From positions 1 to 34,149 of the forward strand of contig JAFUHX010000003.1 in NCBI GenBank assembly GCA_017474045.1: a DNA stretch of 34,149 nt, written 5' to 3'. Under the pieces are notes generated by a model. That model did not search any database. It worked only from the letters and a program-made list of their open reading frames with translations, and was not told the origin of the DNA. The translations under genes were made by a program, and so were the position numbers. This document shows, in pieces, positions 7,418 through 32,273 of this stretch (its first letter is position 1; each line of letters starts with the position of its first letter). The DNA comes from Clostridia bacterium. GTDB taxonomy: Bacteria > Bacillota > Clostridia > Oscillospirales > Acutalibacteraceae.

Positions 7418-7493
7418 GCTGCTATGGCGCAGTCGGTAGCGCGCATCCTTGGTAAGGATGAGGTCACCGGTTCAAATCCGGTTAGCAGCTCCA
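7418..7493 (+). tRNA. tRNA-Thr (anticodon GGT)
   Basis: A 76-nt cloverleaf. The acceptor stem GCTGCTA (7418-7424) pairs fully with TAGCAGC (7483-7489), with discriminator T and encoded CCA (7491-7493). The anticodon arm is CATCC-TTGGTAA-GGATG, which gives anticodon GGT (reads ACC and ACT). The T-arm is CCGG-TTCAAAT-CCGG. It has its own consensus promoter and terminator. Its 3' end is a usual integration site for tyrosine integrases, and an integrase gene starts about 100 nt downstream. Confidence 0.97.
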
Positions 7494-7530
7494 AGCCCTT
7501 GAAACTTCAGGTTTCAAGGGCTTTTTCTTT
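7494..7530 (+). terminator. Intrinsic terminator of tRNA-Thr
   Basis: AGCCCTTGAAAC (7494-7505) pairs with GTTTCAAGGGCT (7511-7522) around a 5-nt loop, followed by TTTTCTTT. It starts at the base after the CCA end. Confidence 0.95.
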
Positions 7531-7551
7531 GCTTTTCATAATTTTATCTGT

Positions 7552-7589
7552 GTGCATCCTTTTTTACAAAATTTAATGAAAGGATGCAC
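7552..7589 (+). promoter_or_regulatory. Hairpin covering the integrase ribosome binding site
   Basis: GTGCATCCTTT (7552-7562) pairs perfectly with AAAGGATGCAC (7579-7589) across a 16-nt loop. The 3' arm contains AAAGGA, the only purine-rich Shine-Dalgarno candidate for the integrase ATG at 7597 (or the ATG at 7576 in the same frame). If transcribed, the stem would hide the ribosome binding site, giving low or conditional integrase translation. Confidence 0.6.
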
Positions 7590-7596
7590 TCTCATT

Positions 7597-8528
7597 ATGC
7601 GTTCAAAAATTGTATTTCGTGGACAATCAGAAAAAAATCTCAAAGAAGTATTTGAAGACTTCATTACTTCACAGACCGCAAGGGGTATTTCAGATATTAC
7701 TATCAGAAGTTACCGACAACATTTACATAGTATATCCAAACATTTGGATATTGAAACACCCTTTGATGAACTAACCAAAAGACAACTCGAAGAAATGATT
7801 TTATCTATGAGGGCAAACGGTCTTGCTCACAACTCAATAGCAACTTATGTCCGGATGCTTCACACCTTCTTTAATTGGTGCAACCGTGAAGGGCTTACAA
7901 CTCTGAACATAGAAAACATCAGAGAAAAAGAAACAATCAAAGAAACCTATTCAGACGAAGAACTTGAACTGCTCCTGAAAAGACCGGGAAAGAAAGCGGA
8001 TTTCAGTGAGTTCAGAAGTTGGGTTATTGTAAACTTCTTCATGAACTGCGGATGCCGTGCGGCGACTGTCGAAACATTCAGAACCGTGATGTTGACCTGA
8101 AGGGAAGACAGATAATATTCAGACACAACAAGAACGGCAAAATTCAGGTTGTTCCCCTTTGTAGCAGAATGGTTGTTATTTTAAGTGATTATATGTCTGT
8201 CCGCAAGGGTAAGCCTGAAGACTATCTTTTCTGTTCTCAATACGGTGAAATGTTATCAGAAAATGGTTTGAGAATTGCTCTTGAACGATATAATAAAAAG
8301 CGAGGGGTTAAGAAAACAAGTATGCACCTGTTCCGCCACACCTTTGCAAGAAAATATTTGGTTGACTGTGGCGGTGATGCCTTTATGCTTCAGCGACTTT
8401 TGGGGCATAGCACTCTGAATATGACAAAACATTACTGTTCTATTTTTGATGCGGACATTTCAAAGAACTATGACCGAGTTTCACCCTTGGAACAGTTAAC
8501 CAAACCAAGAGAGACCATTAAACGCTGA
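7597..8528 (+). pseudogene. Tyrosine recombinase/integrase with a single-base frameshift
   Basis: Two overlapping frames together encode one phage-type integrase of about 310 residues. The first frame holds the SAM-like DNA-binding domain (FITSQTARGISDITIRSYRQ, then NSIATYVRMLHTFFNWC) and the first catalytic arginine (MNCGCRAAT). It then runs into a stop at 8100. The second frame resumes with RNIQNRDVDLKGRQ and carries the rest of the active site: HLFRHTFARKYL and LLGHSTLNMTKHY. Losing one base near 8069-8071 explains the switch: an extra C would give GCRAATVRNIQNRDVDL, the expected family sequence. No classical slippery heptamer is present. The gene lies just 3' of tRNA-Thr, the usual position of an element integrase. 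It is either inactivated, which fits the decayed look of the region, or the base was lost in assembly. Confidence 0.85.
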
Positions 8529-12847: not shown

Positions 12848-12887
12848 AAACAAGTGGCTGTAAAACTCGATTTACAGCCACTTGTTT
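12848..12887. terminator. Bidirectional terminator
   Basis: CAAGTGGCTGTAAA (12851-12864) and TTTACAGCCACTTG (12871-12884) form a 14-bp stem, with flanking AAA and TTT extending it. T-runs lie downstream in both readings. It separates the GPH gene (+) from the malQ operon (-). Confidence 0.93.
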
Positions 12888-12905: not shown

Positions 12906-13385
12906 TTATTCTTCAGTTTCTTCCTCTTCAACTTCTTCAAGAATAACATCCTGATTGGTGAAGAACTTGATTTTGTTAATAGGAACTCCCAAAGCCTTTT
13001 CACATGCCGCGCTTAAAAGACCCATCATTTTTGATTCAATTACAGTATTGATAACGGCAAAATCAATGAGAACGGAAATCTGATTTTTAATGAATTCAAC
13101 GTCTTTATCTTCAAAATATGCTGCGTCAATTTCTTCAACGCTGACCCCTGTAAGAGACATATCCTGATTATAAAGCTTTCTGTTTTTTTCGAAGCATTTC
13201 TGCATAAGGTCAAGCATCTGATCTGCTTTTCCGCTTTTAAGAGCGTTGGAAAGTGAGGTTGTTTTCATCTGAAGCTTGAAGTTAAGGTGGCAGCTTTTAA
13301 CAACTGCGTTTGCCAATTTAACAAGCTCGGGGTTGATTTTTTCGGGAACAAAAATTTCGCCGTCTTTAACATAAAAATAGCTCAT
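12906..13385 (-). CDS. Uncharacterised protein (159 aa), last gene of the malQ operon
   Basis: I do not recognise this protein. It is soluble and mostly helical by composition, opens with YFYVKDGEIFVPEKINPELVK, has a central hydrophobic helix (ISVLIDFAVINTVIES) and ends in a very acidic tail. There is no signal peptide, membrane span or cysteine cluster. It lies 25 nt downstream of the channel-like 842-residue gene and is followed by the operon terminator, so the two are probably made together. It may be a cytoplasmic partner of the channel-like protein; this is inference from position only. Confidence 0.7.
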   Translation of the reverse strand: MSYFYVKDGEIFVPEKINPELVKLANAVVKSCHLNFKLQMKTTSLSNALKSGKADQMLDLMQKCFEKNRKLYNQDMSLTGVSVEEIDAAYFEDKDVEFIKNQISVLIDFAVINTVIESKMMGLLSAACEKALGVPINKIKFFTNQDVILEEVEEEETEE

Positions 13386-13410: not shown

Positions 13411-15939
13411 TTAAACTGTTAATTCTTCTTTGATTTCTTCTGTGTTCTTTTTTTCGCTCAGAGTTTCGCTCTTTTTTTCTTTCTGAGGAAGCAAGTCTTT
13501 GAGCTGTTTATAATCATAATCAACATAATCTTTTCGGTTGAATACACCCAGGCGGTCAAGATCATCCAGATTATCGTCGGGAACTCCTGAAAGAACAAAC
13601 AAAATCTTGATAAGATCGGTGTTGCGCGGATATTTTTCGCAGAATTCATCAAGACTTTCAAACCGTCTGTCTTCCGCCAGAGGAACACAGCTGAAGGCTT
13701 CTGAAAACTTCTGATAGCTGAATTTGTTTTCAATCAGAGCCTCCAGGCAGGAAATCAGTTTTTCTGAATCAGCCTCAAGGGCAGCTTTTTCATATTTCTC
13801 AAAAAGAAGAGTATCACTCACTTTTTCTTTTTCAAGAAGGCAGACATGAAGATTGAAAAGATCGAGCTTTTCCTTAGAGCCCTCAAGAACAAGCTTATGA
13901 GTTTCCAACAGCTTGTCTTGCATTTTTTCGTGATACTTTTCATAAAAGAGAATCATCTGTTTCGAAGTGGGAGCGCAATAGCCGATTGAGCGTGTATAGG
14001 CGTTCCACCTTCTCTTTTCAAGCCACAGAAGCTTCGCAACATAGTCGTTGACCGTTTCTCTGTCAAGCTTTGAAAAATCGATGTCGGCTTTAAACCTTCC
14101 GTTTTCATCATAGAAGCCCAAAGAAAACTCTTTTGTTTTTCTTGAATAAGCCGAAGCAACATCACTTTTTTGGTTATACTGACCGTTGAAGTCAGCAACC
14201 TTTTTTTCAACAGCTTCGTTGCTGTCCTGCTCCTTTTTGGCTTCTTCCTGAGCTTCTTCAAAGGTTTGCAACGCTCTGTCAATAACTTCCTTATATCTTT
14301 CGCCCACAACATTGTAATATGTAAAGCGGTCATTAAGACAGCCGAAGAAATTAAGCTCTGTTTTGGTTGTGCCGGCTTCTGTCAGCTTGTTTTCGTTTTC
14401 AAAATGCTCCTGAAGCTCATCGCTTTCAACAATGCTGTTAATAACAACCGTTCTGTCTTTTCCAAGATATTTCCGGTCAATTTGTTTTTTCAGTCTTCTT
14501 GAAACGTCGGCGTTTTTTCCGTCGTCTCCCAAAGCAACAAGAACATAGTCAATTTCTTCAATTTCATCAATAGCCTTTGTGAAATCATAGGAATTAACAT
14601 CGGCTTTAAAAAAGTTAAAGCGGGCGTAATGACTCATTTTGAAGCTTCCGCCGTTGTTGCAGAATTCATTGCTAAATGCCTCGGGCATACTGCGCTGAAG
14701 GCGGCTTTTCAGCTTGTCTCCGTCAAGGGAAATAATATTAAAGCTAAGCTTAACCGGTGAAACCTTTCCTTTTTCTTTTTCTGCCGGATTGAGCATCTGA
14801 CCCAGCCAATAAGCAATTCTTATGAATTTTCTGGCAACAATTCCGCTTCCCACAACAACAACTGAAAGGCTGTCTTTCGGATTTTTCAAAAGAGGCTTAT
14901 AAAGGGGCTGTTTTTCAAGAAGCTCATAGATAAGAATATCGTATTCTCTGACAATAAAAACCTCAGTCGGAATGTTTTCATTTTTCATCTGTTGGTTTAT
15001 TCTGTCAGCCATCATATCAACGGCTGAACCGTCAGAAAAAACTCTTATTGAAACTTTTTTAACTCCCCGCCAGAGCTCCTTGTGTTTTTCGTCTGAGGTC
15101 AGCTTGGCAAGAATATGCATATTTTTATGAACCTGCTCGCTCATAAGATAATATGCTGTTTGCTCCCGGCCTACTATGTTGAGGTTGGAAATGTCTTCGT
15201 CAACATAGACTGCGCCGATTTTTCTGATTCTCGCGGCAAGGTCTGCAAGACCTTCTTTTTCGTCAGAAATATCTGTGTCGGCAAAAATAATCATTGCCTC
15301 CGGAAAATTATCTCTGATGCTTTCGGCAAGCTCTATTGATCTTTCGTTAAGCTCAGAAAAAATATGCTTGTTGGTTTTGCTTTTTCGGTTTTTTAAATGA
15401 AGAAGAAGGTTTGGGAAAATACTTGAAACGATGTCAATCAAAACTGCGCCGCCGGCAACGGGAGCCAGAACGACCAGAATCATATAGCAAATTCCAAATA
15501 AAACACTTTCGCCTTTTCCGCATTGAACTAAAACAATTGCCTCTCCGACAGAAAGAACATCCTGAAAATTTCCGTCTGCGGCAAAATTGAGAAAGCAACT
15601 GATCAACGCTTCAAAAATCTTTTTAAAAAACTCACCGGAGGTTTCACAGCCGTGACTTAAAACAGCGTAGGTCACATCAAAAAGGCTGAGGAACAAAAAC
15701 AAAATCGGATAAATCAGCTTGTTTTTCAGGCTGACACCCTTGTTGAAAAGAATATCACATACAAGCTTCAGAACTCCGCCTGCAAAGCTGATTGCAGACA
15801 AGAGACAAAAAATTGAAAAAGAAAATTTCAGCTTAAAGCACGCCAGAACAAAAGGAACTAAAGTCAACGCCGCAAGGAAAAGAACTGTTCCCATAGAAAC
15901 AGAGTTCTTTTTCAGGGTTTTCTCATAGAAACTTTTCAT
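13411..15939 (-). CDS. Channel-like membrane protein with TrkA/RCK-type Rossmann domains and a RyR-like domain
   Basis: This 842-residue protein has three hydrophobic helices at about 17-37, 41-65 and 72-97. A further membrane region at about 104-180 could form a pore-type hairpin (ISCFLNFAADGNF, then SVLFGICYMILVVLAPVAGG). Next comes a Rossmann-like segment (191-250, KHIFSELNERSIELAESI) lacking the glycine motif, and a second one with an intact motif (VVVVGSGIVARKFIR, 360-374) extending to about 550, as in TrkA_N/RCK proteins. An acidic coiled region (550-600) follows. At about 624-705, LLWLEKRRWNAYTRSIGY and LHVCL resemble prokaryotic RyR domains (EHxRWNAY...HxCL). By architecture this is a ligand-gated cation channel or a nucleotide-sensing membrane effector. 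It lies 19 nt after the hydratase gene, with AAAGGAG before the ATG. Confidence 0.65.
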   Translation of the reverse strand: MKSFYEKTLKKNSVSMGTVLFLAALTLVPFVLACFKLKFSFSIFCLLSAISFAGGVLKLVCDILFNKGVSLKNKLIYPILFLFLSLFDVTYAVLSHGCETSGEFFKKIFEALISCFLNFAADGNFQDVLSVGEAIVLVQCGKGESVLFGICYMILVVLAPVAGGAVLIDIVSSIFPNLLLHLKNRKSKTNKHIFSELNERSIELAESIRDNFPEAMIIFADTDISDEKEGLADLAARIRKIGAVYVDEDISNLNIVGREQTAYYLMSEQVHKNMHILAKLTSDEKHKELWRGVKKVSIRVFSDGSAVDMMADRINQQMKNENIPTEVFIVREYDILIYELLEKQPLYKPLLKNPKDSLSVVVVGSGIVARKFIRIAYWLGQMLNPAEKEKGKVSPVKLSFNIISLDGDKLKSRLQRSMPEAFSNEFCNNGGSFKMSHYARFNFFKADVNSYDFTKAIDEIEEIDYVLVALGDDGKNADVSRRLKKQIDRKYLGKDRTVVINSIVESDELQEHFENENKLTEAGTTKTELNFFGCLNDRFTYYNVVGERYKEVIDRALQTFEEAQEEAKKEQDSNEAVEKKVADFNGQYNQKSDVASAYSRKTKEFSLGFYDENGRFKADIDFSKLDRETVNDYVAKLLWLEKRRWNAYTRSIGYCAPTSKQMILFYEKYHEKMQDKLLETHKLVLEGSKEKLDLFNLHVCLLEKEKVSDTLLFEKYEKAALEADSEKLISCLEALIENKFSYQKFSEAFSCVPLAEDRRFESLDEFCEKYPRNTDLIKILFVLSGVPDDNLDDLDRLGVFNRKDYVDYDYKQLKDLLPQKEKKSETLSEKKNTEEIKEELTV

Positions 15940-15958: not shown

Positions 15959-18232
15959 TCAGTTTTCAGCCTGAGCTTTATAATAATTCATCAAACAGCC
16001 TTCAAGAATTATTGTTTTTTCATCTTCTGTCAGGCCTTTAACATAAAGAGTTATGTCTTCAACGCCCTTTTCTGTTATAACCTTGGCGGGAATTTCTTCT
16101 TTTCCGTTTTTAATTGCTTCGCGGATTGAAGGAACAAAAACATAATCACCGGGAAGATAGTCAAACTTGGTTTCTTTATCAAGGGTGAAGGGAAGAATTC
16201 CCCAGTTAATGCAGTTACTGCGATATCTCTTTGTTGCAAATTCATAGCAGATATTTGCAAAGCCGCCAAGAACCTTCTGGCATGAAGCTGCCTGTTCTCT
16301 TGCAGAGCCGTCGCCGGGTCTGTTGGCAAAAACACAAGAGCCGAACTGAGTGTGTTTTGCAACCTCCTGAGCGTTGTCGGTTACTTTGGAGAGAACCTCT
16401 GTAACCTCAGCGCTGAAGCCTTCTCTTCTCTTCTTTTCCTCAGCGGCAACAGCCTTGGCTCTGGGAACATATTGCGGCTCTCTTCTTGAAAGCGCAAACT
16501 CAGAAAGTCGAAGAGGGTTGGAACGATAGGAAGAGGTTTCACCTGAAGGAATAAGCTCATCGGTGGTGGTTACCTCGTCATGAAGAACGCAGGCAAGCTT
16601 AACAAGAAGGTTATCTTCAAGAGCATACATAGCGGGCCAATCGGTAATATTGGGGCCGAACTTAAGCTCAGCGTCTTTTTCAGGCTTTTCAAATCCCTGA
16701 TAAACTCTTCTTTCATAAACGCCCTTTTCAAAGCTATAGGTTTTATCATATTCGGGAATTTCCACATCGGTTGCCGCTGTGAGAACGCCTTTGTTAAGCG
16801 CAGTTGCGGCAATGGAGCGTGCGTCAACAAGAGCAACACCTGAAAGCTGACCGTCGCCGGGCTTGCTTCCTTCTCTGTTGGGGAAGTTTCTTGTGGTGTG
16901 TCTTATTGAAAGACCGTTGTTTGCAGGAACATCTCCTGCACCAAAGCAAGGACCGCAGAAGCAAGGCTTGAAAAGTGCTCCGGCTTCAAGAAGCTTGCCC
17001 TGAACTCCGTTTTTAATGAGGGCAAGATTAACGGGAACAGAGGAAGGATAAACTGAAAGCGAGAAATATCCGTCGCCTGTTGATTTTCCGTCAAGAATTG
17101 CAGCTGCTTCACAGATGTTTTCAAACATACCGCCTGCGCAACCGGCAATTATTCCCTGGTCAACATAAATCTTTCCGTCTTTAACCTTGTCATAAAGCTT
17201 AAAATCAACCTTATCGCCAAACTGAGCCTTAGCCGCCGCTTCAACATCTTTGAGAATTTCGGGATTAGCCTGAAGCTCATGAATAGTATAGGCATTTGAT
17301 GGGTGGAAGGGTAAAGCAATCATGCTTTCAATTTTTGAAAGGTCAATTTTAACTGCCATGTCATAATAAGCAGCCTTTCCGGGTCTGAGCTCTTTATAGT
17401 CCTGAGGTCTTCCGTGAATACTATAAAATTCCTTAACCTTTTCGTCAGTTTCCCAGATTGAAGAAAGGCAGGCAGTTTCCGTTGTCATAACGTCAATGCC
17501 GATTCTGAAATCCATGCTGAGATTTTTAACTCCGGGGCCAACAAATTCAAGAACCTTGTTTGTAACAAGACCCTCTTTGAAAACCTTTCCACAAAGAGCA
17601 ATGGCAACGTCGTGAGGGCCGATTCCTCTTTTGGGGGCATTTTCAAGATAAACCAGAACCACCTGAGGAGCATTGATATCCCAGGTGTTTTTCAGAAGCT
17701 GTTTAACAAGCTCAGGGCCACCCTCACCAACAGCCATTGTTCCGAGGGCACCGTAGCGGGTGTGGCTGTCGGAGCCGAGAATCATGCTTCCGCATTTTGC
17801 CATCATTTCTCTTGCGTATTGGTGAATAACTGCCTGATTTGCAGGAACATAAATTCCGCCATATTTTTTAGCGGCTGAAAGGCCGAAAACATGGTCATCT
17901 TCGTTAATTGTTCCTCCAACGGCGCAAAGGCTGTTGTGGCAGTTTGTTAAAGCATAGGGAATGGGAAACTGTTTCAATCCGCTGGCTCTTGCCGTCTGAA
18001 TAATTCCCACATAGGTAATGTCGTGAGAAATCATTGAATCAAAGCGGATTTTCATTTTCCCTTCTTCTGAGCTTATGTTATGGCTGTTTAAAATTCCGTA
18101 GGCAATTGTGTCGTTGCGGCTTCCTGCCTCAACGCCCAAAGAAGCAAGCTGAGCCTTCTTTTCTTCGGCGGTTCCCTCAACAAGCTTTTCGCCTCCCACA
18201 AGATAAACACCGTTTTCAATAACTTCAATCAT
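15959..18232 (-). CDS. Aconitase-superfamily hydratase (YbhJ-like)
   Basis: This 757-residue protein is close to the length of E. coli YbhJ (about 750), a hydratase of unknown substrate in the aconitase superfamily. It shows aconitase signatures: NCHNS, LGSDSHTRYGALGT, GCAGGMFENI, and iron-sulfur cluster cysteines in FKPCFCGPCFGAGD, with another in GCAGG. The C-terminal swivel domain has EFATKRYRSNCINWGILPF with the substrate-binding Arg. It should reversibly hydrate or dehydrate a hydroxy-polycarboxylate in the cytoplasm. It starts 5 nt after the malQ stop codon, and its Shine-Dalgarno site AAAGGAT overlaps the malQ end, so the two are coupled. The pairing with malQ is unexplained. Aconitate hydratase proper is an alternative. 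Confidence 0.88.
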   Translation of the reverse strand: MIEVIENGVYLVGGEKLVEGTAEEKKAQLASLGVEAGSRNDTIAYGILNSHNISSEEGKMKIRFDSMISHDITYVGIIQTARASGLKQFPIPYALTNCHNSLCAVGGTINEDDHVFGLSAAKKYGGIYVPANQAVIHQYAREMMAKCGSMILGSDSHTRYGALGTMAVGEGGPELVKQLLKNTWDINAPQVVLVYLENAPKRGIGPHDVAIALCGKVFKEGLVTNKVLEFVGPGVKNLSMDFRIGIDVMTTETACLSSIWETDEKVKEFYSIHGRPQDYKELRPGKAAYYDMAVKIDLSKIESMIALPFHPSNAYTIHELQANPEILKDVEAAAKAQFGDKVDFKLYDKVKDGKIYVDQGIIAGCAGGMFENICEAAAILDGKSTGDGYFSLSVYPSSVPVNLALIKNGVQGKLLEAGALFKPCFCGPCFGAGDVPANNGLSIRHTTRNFPNREGSKPGDGQLSGVALVDARSIAATALNKGVLTAATDVEIPEYDKTYSFEKGVYERRVYQGFEKPEKDAELKFGPNITDWPAMYALEDNLLVKLACVLHDEVTTTDELIPSGETSSYRSNPLRLSEFALSRREPQYVPRAKAVAAEEKKRREGFSAEVTEVLSKVTDNAQEVAKHTQFGSCVFANRPGDGSAREQAASCQKVLGGFANICYEFATKRYRSNCINWGILPFTLDKETKFDYLPGDYVFVPSIREAIKNGKEEIPAKVITEKGVEDITLYVKGLTEDEKTIILEGCLMNYYKAQAEN

Positions 18233-18237
18233 TTAAC

Positions 18238-19764
18238 TCAATCCTTTCTCTGATATGGAATATACATTCTTCTGTAAACAGAATTTATTTCTTTAAAATA
18301 TTTTTCGTCAATAGAGTTAATGGCCTCTTCGCCGGCTCTGAATGTCCAGTTTTCTTCAGTAGTTCCCGGAACATTCATTCTTGCGTCTTTTCCGAAGCCG
18401 CACATATCCTGAAGAGCAACAACTGCAGTGTCTGAAGCACTTTTCCAGACCGTTTCAATAACGGCTCTGCATGAGCCGCTGTAGGCTCCGCCCTCTCCCC
18501 AGTTGTTTCCGCCGTAGCAGCAATAGCGAAGAGCATAGGCTCTTTCTTGCTCTGAGGCATCCCAAAGCCAACCGAGAATTGTGTTGTTGTCGTGAGTTCC
18601 CACATAAGAAACGCAGTTTTTGGGGTAATTATGGGGAAGATGGGTGCTGTCGCCGTTGGGGTCAAAGCCAAACTGAATAACTCTCATTCCCGGAAACTGA
18701 GTGTCTTCAAGAAGCTTAACAACATCTTCTCCGAAAAGACCCAGATCTTCAGCAACAATATCTGCCTCGGGAAGCTCTTTTTTAACAACGGAAAAAAGCT
18801 TCATTCCCGGGCCTTTTTTCCATTGACCGATTTTTGCCGTTTTGCTTTCAGCGGGAACTGCCCAATAGGAAGCAAAGGCTCTGAAATGGTCAATTCTTAT
18901 TTTGTCATAAAGCTTCATGGCGCAGCCTAACCTTTTAAGCCACCACTTATAGCCGTCTTCTTCCATTTTTTTCCAATTATAAAGAGGGTTTCCCCAAAGC
19001 TGACCGTCCTGAGAAAAATAATCAGGCGGAACTCCGGCAACATTTTTCAGGCTGAGGCTTTTTTCGTCAATTTCAAAAAGCTCAATATTGCTCCAGACAT
19101 CAACGCTGTCTTTGCTGACATAAACGGGCATATCACCGATAAAATAAACATTTTTTGAGTTTGCGTATTCCTTCAGTCTTCGCCATTGGGTGAAAAAAAC
19201 ATATTGGGAAAAAATATAAAATTCAATTTCTTCTTTGAATTCGCCGCTGTTTTTAACCGCGGTTTCATAGCGGGCAAATTTTTCTTCCCATTCCCACCAG
19301 GGCTTTTCGCCGTGAAAGTCTTTCAATGCCATAAACAGAGCATAGTCCTTTACCCACGGATTCTGTTGCGAAAAAATTTCGCAATGGGCTTTGATGTCGT
19401 CATTAATTCTTGAAAAAGCCGTTCTTAAAGCAATGAGCCTCTTTTCTCTTGCAAAAGAATGTTGGCTTTGATAAACCGTTCCTGAAAATTCAGCTTCTCT
19501 GACCTCTTCTTCGGTCAGAAGATTTTGTTCCAGAAGACCTCTCGGGTCAATCAGGGCAATATTTCCCGCAAAGGCACTGACCGAGCAATAGGGTGAACCA
19601 CTCTGGTCAACAGGAACAAGGGGAAGAACCTGCCAGAATCTGAAGCCCATTCTTTCAAGCTTATCTGCAAAATCAAAGGCTTCTTTTCCCATTACTCCCG
19701 TTCCGAAGGGACCGTTGAGGGAGGTAATATGCAAAAGAACGCCTGCTGTTCTCTGATTTTTCAT
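18238..19764 (-). CDS. malQ: 4-alpha-glucanotransferase (amylomaltase, GH77)
   Basis: This 508-residue cytoplasmic GH77 enzyme transfers alpha-1,4-glucan segments between maltodextrins. Signatures are LLHITSLNGPFGTGVMG at the start, PYCSVSAFAGN, KIRIDHFRAFASYW (nucleophile Asp in the RIDHF motif), VAEDLG (acid/base Glu) and VGTHDNNTILGW (third carboxylate). I start at the ATG at 19764, which has GGAGAG 5 nt upstream; the ATG 21 nt earlier has no ribosome binding site. A consensus promoter (TTGAAA, 17 nt, TATAAT) lies upstream. It is the first gene of a four-gene operon that ends at the terminator near 12887. Confidence 0.95.
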   Translation of the reverse strand: MKNQRTAGVLLHITSLNGPFGTGVMGKEAFDFADKLERMGFRFWQVLPLVPVDQSGSPYCSVSAFAGNIALIDPRGLLEQNLLTEEEVREAEFSGTVYQSQHSFAREKRLIALRTAFSRINDDIKAHCEIFSQQNPWVKDYALFMALKDFHGEKPWWEWEEKFARYETAVKNSGEFKEEIEFYIFSQYVFFTQWRRLKEYANSKNVYFIGDMPVYVSKDSVDVWSNIELFEIDEKSLSLKNVAGVPPDYFSQDGQLWGNPLYNWKKMEEDGYKWWLKRLGCAMKLYDKIRIDHFRAFASYWAVPAESKTAKIGQWKKGPGMKLFSVVKKELPEADIVAEDLGLFGEDVVKLLEDTQFPGMRVIQFGFDPNGDSTHLPHNYPKNCVSYVGTHDNNTILGWLWDASEQERAYALRYCCYGGNNWGEGGAYSGSCRAVIETVWKSASDTAVVALQDMCGFGKDARMNVPGTTEENWTFRAGEEAINSIDEKYFKEINSVYRRMYIPYQRKD

Positions 19765-19796
19765 TTTTCTCTCCATTAATTTCAAAATAATATGTT

Positions 19797-26930: not shown

Positions 26931-27587
26931 TCAGATTTCAAACAGCTTTTTCAGCTGTTTCGAAGCGCTCCCTACAGTCAGGGCAACAACTGTGTCGCCG
27001 GCCATAAGAATGCTGTTTCCTCGGGGAATCATAAAAATTCCGCCGCGTTTCATATAAACAAGAACGCAGTCTTCCGGAACATCAAGCTCCATAACCTTTT
27101 TTCCGCTTTTTGACCATTTTAGCGGAATATCATATTCGCTGATTACGGCGTTACTGCTTCCGATGTCGGCAATAAGCTGAACCTGCGCTCCGTCAATTTC
27201 ATGCTCAATAAGCTGAGTCATAAGCTTCGTTGTGTCAAGAACAATGTCAATTCCCAGCTTTTTCATCAAAGCAACATTTTTGTTGTTGTTAATTTTTGAA
27301 ATAGTGCGCTTAACGTTAAATTGCTTTTTGGCAATTTCGCAGGCAATGAGGTTATCCTCATCCTTCCCCGTTGCCGCAATAAGAACCTCACACTTTCCCA
27401 CACCTGCGTTTGAAAGAGTTTCAAGTGTGGTTCCGTCACCGCAAAAAACGCCCACATCAAGCGTGGTTGCAATTTTTTCGCATCGATCCTTGTCTGAATC
27501 AATTATTTTAACATTATAGCCCGATTCAAGAAGATTTTTGGCAAGAAAGAAACCATGCCTTCCTGCTCCAACAATAATTATATTCAT
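26931..27587 (-). CDS. trkA: TrkA-type potassium uptake regulator
   Basis: This 218-residue protein has an N-terminal Rossmann TrkA_N domain with the glycine motif GAGRHG (7-12) and an acidic residue ending strand 2 (KIIDSD), then a TrkA_C domain (from about 140: IADIGSSNAVISEYDIP, GNSILMAGDTVVALT). It is a cytosolic NAD(H)/nucleotide-binding gating subunit for K+ uptake (Trk/Ktr). It lies 23 nt after a second TrkA gene. No trkH/ktrB membrane subunit is in the window, so the membrane partner must be elsewhere. Confidence 0.92.
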   Translation of the reverse strand: MNIIIVGAGRHGFFLAKNLLESGYNVKIIDSDKDRCEKIATTLDVGVFCGDGTTLETLSNAGVGKCEVLIAATGKDEDNLIACEIAKKQFNVKRTISKINNNKNVALMKKLGIDIVLDTTKLMTQLIEHEIDGAQVQLIADIGSSNAVISEYDIPLKWSKSGKKVMELDVPEDCVLVYMKRGGIFMIPRGNSILMAGDTVVALTVGSASKQLKKLFEI

Positions 27588-27610
27588 AAATTAAGCCTTT
27601 CAAAATCAGT

Positions 27611-28234
27611 TTATTGCCAGACAACAGAAAAAACAACAATATCTCCCTCGTCAACAATAAAATTTTCATTGTTTGCCAGAACGAGCTCTCCCGTTTCTTT
27701 AATCAGAGCAAAAACCATTTCGTTTTTTCTGCAAAAAATTTCGTTTGCCTCTTTTCCGAGAGTCTTTTTTCCTGCCTTTTCAAAAACGAACTGAACTGTG
27801 TTTCCCCCAAGCGTTATACTGCTGATTTCTTCGAAATCCTCTGTTACAATGTCAAAGAAAATATCGGTTTCGTGTCTGGTGGGGCAAACAGTTCGCAATC
27901 CAAACTTTCTGAAAACAGCCTCGCGGGCAGGGTCAAGAATCCGTGTGTAGATTTTTTCGGTTTCAAACTCAGTTTTTAACATCTGTGAAACCATAACGTT
28001 AATGTTGTCACTTTGAGTAACAACAACGGCAATGTCTGCGTTTTCACAGCCGGCATTTTTTAAAACATCAATGTCTGTTACCTCACCGCAGACAACAAGC
28101 CCTGAAAAATCTGAGGGAAGGCTTTCAAATTTTCTTTCGTCTTCGTCAACAATTGAAATGTCGAAGCCTCTTTCGTCAAGCTCTGCGGCTAGTCTTGCGC
28201 CGGTTTTTCCGCAGCCGATTATTATAACATTCAT
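27611..28234 (-). CDS. trkA: Second TrkA-type regulator
   Basis: This 207-residue protein has the same two-domain layout as its neighbour: GCGKTG (7-12), acidic end of strand 2 (SIVDED), and a TrkA_C domain (about 135-207, VFEKAGKKTLGKEANEI, VDEGDIVVFSV). Start chosen at the ATG at 28234 because AGGAGG lies 8 nt upstream; a longer frame to 28255 would begin before this site. The two TrkA proteins are diverged, so they may form a heteromeric gating ring or bind different nucleotides. Cotranscribed with the phosphoesterase gene. Confidence 0.9.
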   Translation of the reverse strand: MNVIIIGCGKTGARLAAELDERGFDISIVDEDERKFESLPSDFSGLVVCGEVTDIDVLKNAGCENADIAVVVTQSDNINVMVSQMLKTEFETEKIYTRILDPAREAVFRKFGLRTVCPTRHETDIFFDIVTEDFEEISSITLGGNTVQFVFEKAGKKTLGKEANEIFCRKNEMVFALIKETGELVLANNENFIVDEGDIVVFSVVWQ

Positions 28235-28255
28235 CAATTTGCCTCCTAAAATCAA

Positions 28256-30143: not shown

Positions 30144-30152
30144 CAAAGTTAA

Positions 30153-30310
30153 GATAGAGGCGCAGGTTTTATCAGTACGTTTCGGGAGCTGCTCAGACAG
30201 CTGTGAATGTTGCGGAAAGGAAAATCTGCCGAAGCCGGAATTTTCTGTGAAGTTCTGAGCTGGCAAGCAAAAGAAGATTTTGTTTGCTGTCGCATCTGCG
30301 GAGGGCTATC
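30153..30310 (+). ncRNA. Lysine riboswitch (L box)
   Basis: The P1 stem GATAG (30153-30157) pairs with CTATC (30306-30310). Between lie the conserved core blocks in L-box order: AGAGGCGCA near the 5' end, GGAAAGG, GCCGAAGCC, GAGCTGGC, CTGTCGCA and TGCGGAGGGCTATC at the 3' end. Size (about 160 nt), order and spacing match a five-helix L box. It directly precedes a terminator and an NhaC-type transporter gene, so lysine binding should stop transporter transcription. Confidence 0.94.
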
Positions 30311-30326
30311 ACACTTTGAGGAATGT

Positions 30327-30354
30327 GAGATTGCCCTGCGGTAATCTCTTTTTT
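30327..30354 (+). terminator. Riboswitch-controlled terminator
   Basis: GAGATTGCC (30327-30335) pairs with GGTAATCTC (30340-30348), followed by TTTTTT. Its GCCC can also pair with GGGC of the riboswitch 3' strand (30303-30306), a plausible antiterminator in the absence of lysine. Confidence 0.85.
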
Positions 30355-30390
30355 GTTGCCTGTTGGCAACTGACGAAGCGGCAAAGCCGC
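30355..30390 (+). promoter_or_regulatory. Two short leader hairpins after the terminator
   Basis: GTTGCC-TGTT-GGCAAC (30355-30370) and GCGGC-AAA-GCCGC (30378-30390) are stable stem-loops between the terminator and the ribosome binding site GGAGG (30403). They could stabilise the 5' end of the read-through mRNA. Confidence 0.6.
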
Positions 30391-30416
30391 AAAAATTTAA
30401 ACGGAGGATTTTAAAA

Positions 30417-32273
30417 ATGAAAAAGTCAACCACCTTTGCAAGAGTAATTCTTGCGCTGATGCTTGTTATTGCCTTTGCAATTCCTGCATCAACCGTTGCT
30501 TTTGCCCAAGAGGGTGAAACACCGGTTCTTTATTCAGACAGCACCGCAAACCCCGAAGTTGTTGAAAACGAAGCTGCTTTTTCTGTTGATGTTGACGGAG
30601 AAGCAATTCAATATGATTTCAACAACGAAGATGATGAAGATGAAATTAAATCAGCTTCAGATTATGTTGACAGCTACGCTGACAACCTTACAAACGACCC
30701 CGGCTTCAAAGAGCATATTGAATCTGCTCTTGCCAAAATCCGCGAATCAATCGGCTCTTACGCCACAGTTCTCGCTCTTCTTCCCCCGATAATTGCAATC
30801 GTTCTTGCTCTTATTACAAAAGAAGTTTATTCCTCACTTATCATCGGTATTGTTGTCGGCGGCTTCATTTATGCCGGCGGTAACTTTGAAACTGCAATCA
30901 ACCATGTTCTTTTCGACGGCTTTGTTTCAAGCCTTTCCGACAGCTACAACATGGGTATCATCATTTTCCTTGTTCTTCTCGGCGCACTTGTTTCAATGAT
31001 GAACAAAGCAGGCGGAAGCGCAGCTTTCGGCCGCTGGGCATCAAAACACATTAAGTCAAGAGTCGGCGCTCAGCTTGCAACAATTGCTCTCGGCTGCCTT
31101 ATCTTTATTGACGACTATTTCAACTGTCTCACAGTTGGTTCAGTTATGCGCCCCGTTACTGACAAACAGAATGTTTCCAGAGCAAAGCTTTCTTATCTCA
31201 TTGACGCCACTGCTGCTCCTGTTTGCATTATCGCTCCCATTTCTTCATGGGCAGCCGCTGTTGCGGGCTTTGCAAGAGGCGCAGGTGCTGAAAGCGGAAT
31301 CAGCCTTTTCGTTCAGGCAATTCCCTATAACTTCTATGCTCTTCTCACAATCGCAATGATGATTTTCATCGCTGTTACCAAGTTTGACTACGGCCCCATG
31401 AAGCTTCACGAAAAGAACGCCGTTGAAAAAGGCGACCTTTTCACCAGCGGAACCCGTGTTGACAGCGCAGACGTTGAAGCTAACCCCAAGGGTAAGGTTC
31501 TCGACCTCGTTCTTCCCGTTGTTGTTCTTATTATCTGTTGCGTTCTCGGAATGATTTATTCCGGCGGCTTCTTTGCAACAGGCGAAGACAAAGCAGGATT
31601 TATCGATGCCTTCTCAAACAGCGACGCTTCAGTCGGTCTTGTTATCGGTTCAGCAATTGCAATTGTTTTCACAGTTGTTTATCTTCTTATCAGAAGAGTT
31701 ATTACTTTCAAAGACGCTATGAATTCTCTTCCCGAAGGCTTCAAAGCAATGGTTCCTGCAATCCTTATTCTCACTTGTGCATGGACTCTTAAAGCTATGA
31801 CCGACAGCCTCGGCGCAAAAATCTTTATTTCTCAGCTCGTTGAAAACAGTGCCGGTTCCTTCCAGGCCTTCCTTCCTGCAATTATCTTCCTTATTGCTGT
31901 TGGCCTTTCATTTGCAACCGGAACATCATGGGGTACCTTCGGTATTCTTATTCCCATCGTTCTCAGCGTATTTGCTGCAGATAACCCCCTCACAATCGTT
32001 TCAATTTCAGCTTGTATGGCAGGTGCTGTTTGCGGCGACCACTGCTCACCCATTTCAGACACAACCATCATGGCTTCAGCCGGCGGACAATGCGACCACC
32101 TCAACCACGTTTCAACTCAGCTTCCCTATGCTTTGACTGTTGCAGGCGTTTCATTTGTCAGCTATATAATTGCCGGCTTTGTTCCCAACTGGCTTATTTC
32201 TCTTCCCATTGCTCTTGTTCTTATGGTTGGAACTCTCTTTGTTATCAAGGTAATAACAAAGAAAAAGGCATAA
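30417..32273 (+). CDS. NhaC-family transporter, predicted lysine importer (LysW type)
   Basis: This 618-residue polytopic protein of the NhaC Na+/H+ antiporter family has about twelve membrane segments. The family core is visible: GCLIFIDDYFNCLTVGSVMR, ATAAPVCIIAPISSWAA, FATGTSWGTFGILIPI and CGDHCSPISDTTIMAS. L-box-controlled NhaC-type proteins have been predicted as lysine importers (called lysW in comparative-genomics work), and the riboswitch here supports that. Unusually it has a signal-peptide-like N-terminus (MKKSTTFARVILALMLVIA, then FA-QEG, about 1-30) and an acidic outer segment (31-110) before the first core membrane helix; typical NhaC proteins lack this. GGAGG lies 9 nt before the ATG. 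Confidence 0.9.
   Translation: MKKSTTFARVILALMLVIAFAIPASTVAFAQEGETPVLYSDSTANPEVVENEAAFSVDVDGEAIQYDFNNEDDEDEIKSASDYVDSYADNLTNDPGFKEHIESALAKIRESIGSYATVLALLPPIIAIVLALITKEVYSSLIIGIVVGGFIYAGGNFETAINHVLFDGFVSSLSDSYNMGIIIFLVLLGALVSMMNKAGGSAAFGRWASKHIKSRVGAQLATIALGCLIFIDDYFNCLTVGSVMRPVTDKQNVSRAKLSYLIDATAAPVCIIAPISSWAAAVAGFARGAGAESGISLFVQAIPYNFYALLTIAMMIFIAVTKFDYGPMKLHEKNAVEKGDLFTSGTRVDSADVEANPKGKVLDLVLPVVVLIICCVLGMIYSGGFFATGEDKAGFIDAFSNSDASVGLVIGSAIAIVFTVVYLLIRRVITFKDAMNSLPEGFKAMVPAILILTCAWTLKAMTDSLGAKIFISQLVENSAGSFQAFLPAIIFLIAVGLSFATGTSWGTFGILIPIVLSVFAADNPLTIVSISACMAGAVCGDHCSPISDTTIMASAGGQCDHLNHVSTQLPYALTVAGVSFVSYIIAGFVPNWLISLPIALVLMVGTLFVIKVITKKKA

Follow-up and report, generated by a model that had tools for sequence, protein, structure and literature searches.

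The malQ locus and the P0001 gene

The window, that is the whole stretch of 34,149 nucleotides that was analyzed, carries malQ, an aconitase-superfamily hydratase gene and the genes designated P0001 and P0002 in this order, with gaps of 5, 19 and 25 bases (Table 1). A promoter-like site precedes malQ (19825-19797, consensus scan only). Since the short gaps, the promoter-like site and the hairpin behind P0002 fit a single unit, the four genes likely form one transcription unit, and P0002 is probably cotranscribed with P0001 at this locus.

P0001 is an intact open reading frame of 842 codons running from 15939 to 13411. The original prediction had placed a gene at exactly these coordinates, which is correct for the minus strand; the plus-strand reading of the frame is full of stops. 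The ATG is preceded by AAAAGGAG, and the ribosome sites of both the 842- and the 159-residue genes are good. The GC content of the P0001 gene is 0.398 and that of the window 0.399, so that composition gives no signal of a recent acquisition, and this possibility was dropped.

Table 1. Features of the P0001 locus and domains of the predicted P0001 protein.
Feature	Position	Strand	Basis or remark
malQ 4-alpha-glucanotransferase	18238..19785	-	near the hydratase gene in most other loci
Aconitase-superfamily hydratase, genus core gene	15959..18232	-	NF008503 'hydratase', 1232 bits vs cut-off 641
P0001, 842-aa TM - Rossmann - RyR-like protein	13411..15939	-	translation; divergent member of a wide family
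Membrane region, residues ~15-185	15385..15897	-	hydropathy peaks 28, 52, 84, 159/173; P160 in 77/78 rows
Cytoplasmic domain 1, residues ~186-355 (FSELNERS...)	14875..15384	-	conserved in family; Rossmann/RCK-like by eye only
TrkA-N-like Rossmann domain, residues ~356-560 (VVVVGSGIVARK)	14260..14874	-	hhalign vs local TrkA-N alignment
Charged linker, residues ~561-620	14080..14259	-	sequence
RyR-like domain, residues ~621-800, long insertion; K642, W645, H698, D792	13540..14079	-	profiles and alignment
P0002, 159-aa gene	12906..13385	-	25 bases downstream of P0001
17-pair hairpin behind P0002, where the four-gene unit may end	12848..12887	.	consensus scan only

The hydratase gene has matches in 32 of the 34 genomes of the genus, the one in G003 being weak (31%). 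In 25 of 29 other hydratase loci malQ lies within 1.5 kb, with one or two small genes between them in five, and malQ and the hydratase gene are thus an old pair in the genus. Neither the 842- nor the 159-residue gene was found at any of these 29 loci (1.5-kb flanks, some contigs ending early). Relatives of P0002 occur in 11 other genomes of the genus (56-75% identity) among varied neighbors, none of which is a member of the P0001 family within 1.5 kb; where one genome holds both genes, they are on different contigs. P0002 itself gave no NCBIfam hit, Pfam matches below cut-off only (the best to AC39, E 0.0067) and one PDB match (E 0.67). As neither gene was seen in the flanks of the other hydratase loci and P0002 is unlinked elsewhere, the operon is a local arrangement. 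A functional link of P0001 to malQ and the hydratase was therefore rejected, as was P0002 as its partner. The malQ operon in which the original prediction had set the gene thus holds as a four-gene unit here and is not conserved. The same applies to its pairing of the 842- and 159-residue genes, and the combination with a glucan enzyme and a hydratase, which it had considered new, was seen in this genome only. Unconserved neighbors, which it had named as evidence against its reading, were found for the malQ unit and for this pair; the neighborhoods of the family at large are a different matter, as described below.

Other features of the window were also noted. At 7418-8528, a tRNA gene is followed by a gene resembling a tyrosine recombinase (by eye), split into two overlapping frames (7552-8100 and 8019-8528), which is possibly the remnant of an integrated element. 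At 30147-32273, a lysine riboswitch precedes a gene for a membrane protein of 636 aa, NhaC-like by eye, which may be involved in lysine transport. A pair of neighboring genes at 26931-28255, about 11 kb from the 842-aa gene, encodes ordinary TrkA-N proteins of 218 and 214 aa.

Domain organization of P0001

Taken alone, P0001 gave no useful match in Pfam, NCBIfam, PADLOC or the PDB. It hit neither the Pfam TrkA_N nor the RyR (PF02026) model, and in PADLOC it had no hit at E 0.01, a match to PtuB (E 0.019) being at chance level. The family profile matches it at 3.8e-186, P0001 itself being a row of that profile. The domains were hence followed in the family alignment.

In the membrane region, the last two of the P0001 hydropathy peaks are close together, and a weak additional peak at residue 367 falls within the Rossmann domain. 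The first 260 residues of 77 relatives show three hydropathy peaks in 56 cases, four in 18, five in two and two in one. The pore-type membrane hairpin proposed in the original prediction could not be demonstrated: the membrane part has no similarity to local K+-channel sequences, of which there were four rows only (hhalign E 0.45), the T-x-G-Y-G filter motif is absent by eye, and there was no Pfam Ion_trans_2 hit.

Two Rossmann domains had been predicted behind the membrane part, a degenerate and an intact one. The second is well supported, as residues 352-560 of the family alignment match the TrkA-N alignment (hhalign 97.1%, E 5e-11). Its 'intact' state needs qualification, since the third glycine of the motif, nearly invariant in the family, is replaced by alanine in P0001 (VVVVGSGIVAR). 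The first could be recognized by eye only: residues 183-355 gave no profile match to TrkA-N (hhalign 0.4%, E 0.15), and their assignment to that family was not retained.

The C-terminal RyR-like block of the original prediction is supported. With the family profile, matches to solved RyR domains were obtained (6uhi, E 9e-10; 6uag, E 8.7e-5) that cover the second half of the domain, and 47 columns of the family alignment could be aligned with solo RyR proteins of bacteria (hhalign 91.2%, E 1e-6). With a profile of 16 mostly long relatives the RyR match is weaker (E 0.0047). The PF02026 cut-off was not reached among 10 relatives (best 19.0 versus 27.4 bits), and one of the 16 A3 members matched in a scan with this model (E 0.0017). 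In sequence comparison, it is thus the family profile that carries the RyR-like assignment, which has less support among the long relatives and extends over half of the domain. Taken together, the predicted order of membrane part, TrkA-type Rossmann domain and RyR-like end stands, without its first Rossmann domain and its pore hairpin.

Candidate ligand positions in the RyR-like domain

The phage RyR-domain protein RyDEP binds and cleaves 2'/3'cADPR by means of H75, W78, H100 and D117, according to the parts available of a preprint of May 2026 (PMC13232231). Several of its homologues only bind the signals without cleaving them, and some sequester them (same source, in part). The equivalent positions of P0001 (642, 645, 698, and 792 as in long relatives) were assigned by motif and spacing (HxxW, H, and D at H+17) and are not tool-derived. 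On this basis, P0001 displays K, W, H and D. The catalytic histidine position is H in 76 of 78 aligned rows and K in P0001 (K642) and L094. The equivalents of W645 and H698 are invariant (78/78), and D is found at H+17 in 51 of the 78 rows. D792 is present in 14 of the 16 rows of the A3 alignment; the other two, of the short type, are gapped there. Because W645 lies within the peptide pattern that had fetched the 78 rows, conservation was rechecked in 30 profile-found rows, P0001 included, which have H in 28, K in one (P0001) and a gap in one at the first position, W in 29 and the second H in 29. The insertion between W645 and H698 amounts to 53 residues in P0001, the longest of the 78 rows (21-47 in the other 77). 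Given the lysine at the RyDEP catalytic position, the RyR-like domain of P0001 would be likelier to bind a signal than to cleave it.

Relatives of P0001

The relatives of P0001 show 19-30% identity to it, and no close orthologue was found. In a search of 59 genomes, matches were obtained in eight besides its own (23-30% identity). Profile matches occur in 9 of 34 genomes of the genus and 31 of 295 of the order, its own included, some of them being partial or kinase fusions. A scan with the pattern RW[NA]A[YF][MT]R[SAV]xG, with one genome per species, yielded 171 confirmed places, of which 79 loci were kept; conservation of the pattern residues is thus built into this set. A script that greedily takes the longest ORFs was used to predict the genes of the relatives. 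It missed the family ORF in four of the 79 pattern loci (L088, L092, L099 and L115) and in one of the 30 profile-found loci (L035), so that 75 and 29 loci were counted, respectively. The two sets overlap (e.g. G056 is L084 and G315 is L066) and include loci that closely duplicate one another; they are therefore not independent.

A quick tree of 89 rows separated two groups, one of mostly long (>700 aa) and one of mostly short proteins. P0001 joins the long group with a support of 82 and a branch of 1.73, values that leave its place in the tree unsure. Protein length, divided at 700 aa, served as a proxy for the tree group, the long L070 and L076 falling in the other one. P0001 is a divergent orphan member of a broad family without a model in the libraries.

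No PADLOC hit at E 0.01 was obtained for the 16 family members scanned. Viral contigs gave no confirmed relative of the family or of P0002, a weak negative as the family scans were confirmed against the divergent P0001. The search for plasmid carriage had no hit, which is equally a weak negative with P0001 as a divergent query.

Gene neighborhoods of the family

Neighbors were labeled with profiles built from few seeds, and representatives were checked with Pfam or PADLOC; fused proteins may receive two labels. As several contigs are short, the counts are lower bounds. In the Pfam check, representatives matched RyR (E 7e-36), TIR_2 (2e-17), Peptidase_M41 (1e-29) and Card1_endonuc (4.5e-7), a second Card1-like protein staying just under its cut-off and a TerB match (0.0034) below it. 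The DUF4062 representatives were confirmed, one of them weakly. PADLOC assigned CARF-PDDEXK to the Card1-like representative (8e-27) and SAVED-TIR to all three TIR representatives, two of which also had a weak ThsB match (E 3e-5); it gave no hit for the DUF4062 or the solo RyR representative. A glutamate that we take to be the catalytic residue is present in 46 of 47 TIR rows, duplicates included. In the parts available of PMC13174449, DUF4062 is described as a TIR-like antiphage NADase, and its enzymes as giving plain ADP-ribose.

Within 5 kb of the family gene, the 75 pattern loci contain TIR (20), AAA+/M41 (13), solo RyR (11), Card1-like (10) and DUF4062 (5) genes as well as tandem family copies (8). 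A TIR or DUF4062 gene is found in 25 of them, and any of six classes (TIR, DUF4062, AAA+/M41, Card1-like, solo RyR and kinase fusion) in 45. The 29 profile-found loci, window included, contain TIR (9), solo RyR (8), AAA+/M41 (4), Card1-like (3) and DUF4062 (3) genes and tandem copies (4) at that distance. TIR or DUF4062 is present in 12 of these 29, at no more than 321 bases in eight of the 12, and any of the same six classes in 18; 17 are without an NADase gene within 5 kb and 11 without any of the six classes, some contigs being short. In 32 loci with full flanks, NADase genes account for 11 of 127, 3 of 87, 1 of 84 and 0 of 62 genes in successive 2-kb steps outward. In the genus, a TIR gene lies within 5 kb of six of the nine family copies, where about 0.25 would be expected from the 38 TIR hits that the eight genomes concerned contain (P ~2e-8, in a post hoc test that ignores islands and the clustering of TIR genes), and two of the seven DUF4062 hits of the genus are within 5 kb of family copies. 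The neighborhoods of many relatives fit the link of prokaryotic RyR and TrkA-type proteins to conflict that the original prediction had mentioned.

Of the nine genus copies, P0001 alone lacks both TIR and DUF4062 within 5 kb (one of the other eight has a DUF4062 match at cut-off, 4.9 kb away), and no labeled NADase or other conflict gene was found within that distance of it. Its own genome has five TIR hits, four of them over cut-off, and two DUF4062 hits. Among the pattern loci holding a single copy, the 18 whose protein has 700 aa or more have AAA+/M41 (5), Card1-like (4), DUF4062 (3) and TIR (1, L080) neighbors, and 17 of 49 short-protein loci have TIR. Long family proteins with TIR do exist in the genus (G022 and L200). 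As the TIR link is chiefly one of short proteins, it is weaker for P0001 and its nearer relatives.

Some loci deserve separate mention. On another contig of the same genome (C2), L195:4277-8818 encodes a protein of 1513 aa in which a protein kinase (Pfam) is fused to Card1-like and Rossmann-RyR parts (in-house profiles). It adjoins a PP2C phosphatase of 236 aa and a protein of 1162 aa without Pfam hit at E 0.01, and similar fusions occur in G030 and G004. Near the start of a contig of 4476 bases of that genome (C67), L193:383-667 encodes a solo RyR protein well over the PF02026 cut-off, which may be a partner of P0001 in trans. At L199:3-9572, a family member, a TIR gene, a CitMHS-type transporter, a large VWA-like (by eye) protein and a tubulin-like gene stand in one run, parts of which recur at other loci.

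Comparison with known systems

As in Thoeris, part of the family has a TIR gene adjoining a gene for a candidate ADPR-signal-binding domain with an output part. The output of the family is a TM-Rossmann-RyR protein, however, whereas that of Thoeris is a SIR2-SLOG or Macro protein in the parts of the sources available, and P0001 has no TIR gene within 5 kb, unlike nine of the 29 family loci. Known ThsA models were unmatched, and neither P0001 nor the 16 members gave a PADLOC hit at E 0.01. In the absence of an adjacent TIR gene and of a model match, P0001 was not classified as Thoeris. The family shares with RyDEP an RyR-like domain of the R12 (PF02026) type, in which, by our assignment, H75, W78 and H100 have equivalents in nearly all aligned relatives and D117 in many; RyDEP proteins are phage anti-defense proteins, whereas in the family the domain forms the C-terminal end of a large membrane protein of bacteria, and P0001 has K in place of H75. 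The R12 repeat of animal ryanodine receptors is likewise an RyR domain on a membrane protein, and the profile match to solved RyR domains agrees with this, but P0001 has a Rossmann layer and few helices, and the searches matched none of the other receptor parts. TrkA/RCK-gated K+ channels and Trk/Ktr systems also have a TrkA-N Rossmann domain behind membrane helices; P0001 differs from them by the absence of a K+-filter motif and by a membrane part unlike the four local K+-channel rows. The DUF4062 NADases (Swarozyc; PMC13174449, in part), within 5 kb in three of 29 family loci, are neighbors of the P0001 family and not relatives.

Among the literature matches listed, no title or abstract opening describes the TM-Rossmann-RyR architecture; an earlier description is possible. 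Words for RyR, Thoeris and TIR come together, among the matches listed, in PMC13232231 and in a review on axon degeneration (PMC8295901), both available in part. The main text of PMC8195603 and PMC7159879, as far as available, contains neither RyR nor TrkA, 'ryanodine' being present in two references of PMC8195603. The passages listed from PMC7016017 include no bacterial RyR link, and those from PMC13142454 nothing bearing on the family.

Proposed function of P0001 and its family

The nucleotide-gated channel or sensor of the original prediction is also our best guess. We tentatively favor, at somewhat less than even confidence, that P0001 belongs, as a divergent orphan, to a family of membrane receptors/effectors that are switched by ADP-ribose-type signals, in the manner of a Thoeris effector, and are linked to NADases, of which the ligand, gating, channel activity and role in defense are inferred. 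The basis is the domain make-up, the conservation of the assigned ligand-contact positions and the neighborhood link of the family; against it stand the absence of an NADase or conflict gene within 5 kb of P0001 and that of the RyDEP catalytic histidine. Its unsure place in the tree, the weaker TIR link of its nearer relatives, the family loci without an NADase nearby, the missing pore signature and the plain ADP-ribose ascribed to DUF4062 enzymes also count against it. That the proteins are signal-receptor membrane effectors of TIR-type immunity is of moderate likelihood for the family and of lower likelihood for the P0001 copy.

In such a mechanism, as pictured for the family as a whole, infection would activate an NADase of the TIR or DUF4062 type, which would produce an ADP-ribose-type signal. 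The C-terminal RyR-like domain would act as the sensor, and the TrkA/RCK-type Rossmann part, of which one domain is certain and a second possible, would form a cytoplasmic layer coupling it to the few helices in the membrane. Binding of the signal would cause a movement through this layer and a change of the membrane part, which might leak ions or otherwise harm the membrane and so stop the infection. Adjoining solo RyR proteins may buffer or remove the signal. In the case of P0001, an NADase acting in trans would be needed, possibly one of the TIR and DUF4062 hits of its own genome.

The strongest alternative, in itself rather unlikely, is that P0001 is a former defense effector which no longer has its partner or one of its key sensor residues and is drifting or reused for a new ligand. 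Its solitary position among the genus copies, the H642 to K change, the long branch and the record W-to-H insertion all agree with this. However, the frame is intact, W645, H698, D792 and many family motifs are kept, K at position 642 also occurs in L094, and its genome offers TIR, DUF4062, a solo RyR protein and the kinase-Card1-Rossmann-RyR fusion as possible trans partners. A housekeeping role seems a little less probable still. P0001 would then be a TrkA/Ktr-like membrane regulator that adjusts ion flux to metabolism upon sensing NAD(H), ATP or ADP-ribose, coupled to the glucan and organic-acid genes, as its clear TrkA-N domain, the ribosome sites and short gaps of the malQ-hydratase unit and its window-like composition would allow; yet the family is patchy in the genus and the order (own genome, partial matches and kinase fusions counted), is absent beside malQ and the hydratase in the 29 other loci, and has many members near TIR, DUF4062, Card1-like or AAA+/M41 genes. 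Least probable, and by some distance, is a membrane-anchored eraser or inhibitor whose RyR-like domain holds neighboring NADases in check by cleaving or sequestering ADPR signals, for although RyDEP cleaves and some homologues sequester such signals (PMC13232231, in part), most relatives keep the H, many the D at H+17, and solo RyR genes adjoin the family in eight of 29 loci, a mere anchor would in our judgement need neither conserved membrane motifs nor a Rossmann layer, and P0001 has no catalytic histidine.

The favored reading has a more specific form that we regard as unlikely for now. The protein would be a bacterial channel gated by cADPR isomers through its RyR domain, in a TIR-linked effector family whose Card1-like nuclease, AAA+/M41 protease and kinase-fused variants use this one sensor. 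A direct action of cADPR on animal ryanodine receptors has long been under dispute, and such a channel family would mirror this disputed control. If the reading is true, TIR-type immunity of bacteria has a membrane effector whose sensor shares the ryanodine receptor fold, and direct binding and gating by cADPR could be tested on a bacterial protein whose RyR domain is encoded next to a TIR gene. The family, of which 17 proteins were scanned without finding a PADLOC model, would then offer a candidate role for bacterial RyR domains, and the interest of the finding lies in the family as such and in a direct test of the sensing of cADPR isomers by an RyR domain.
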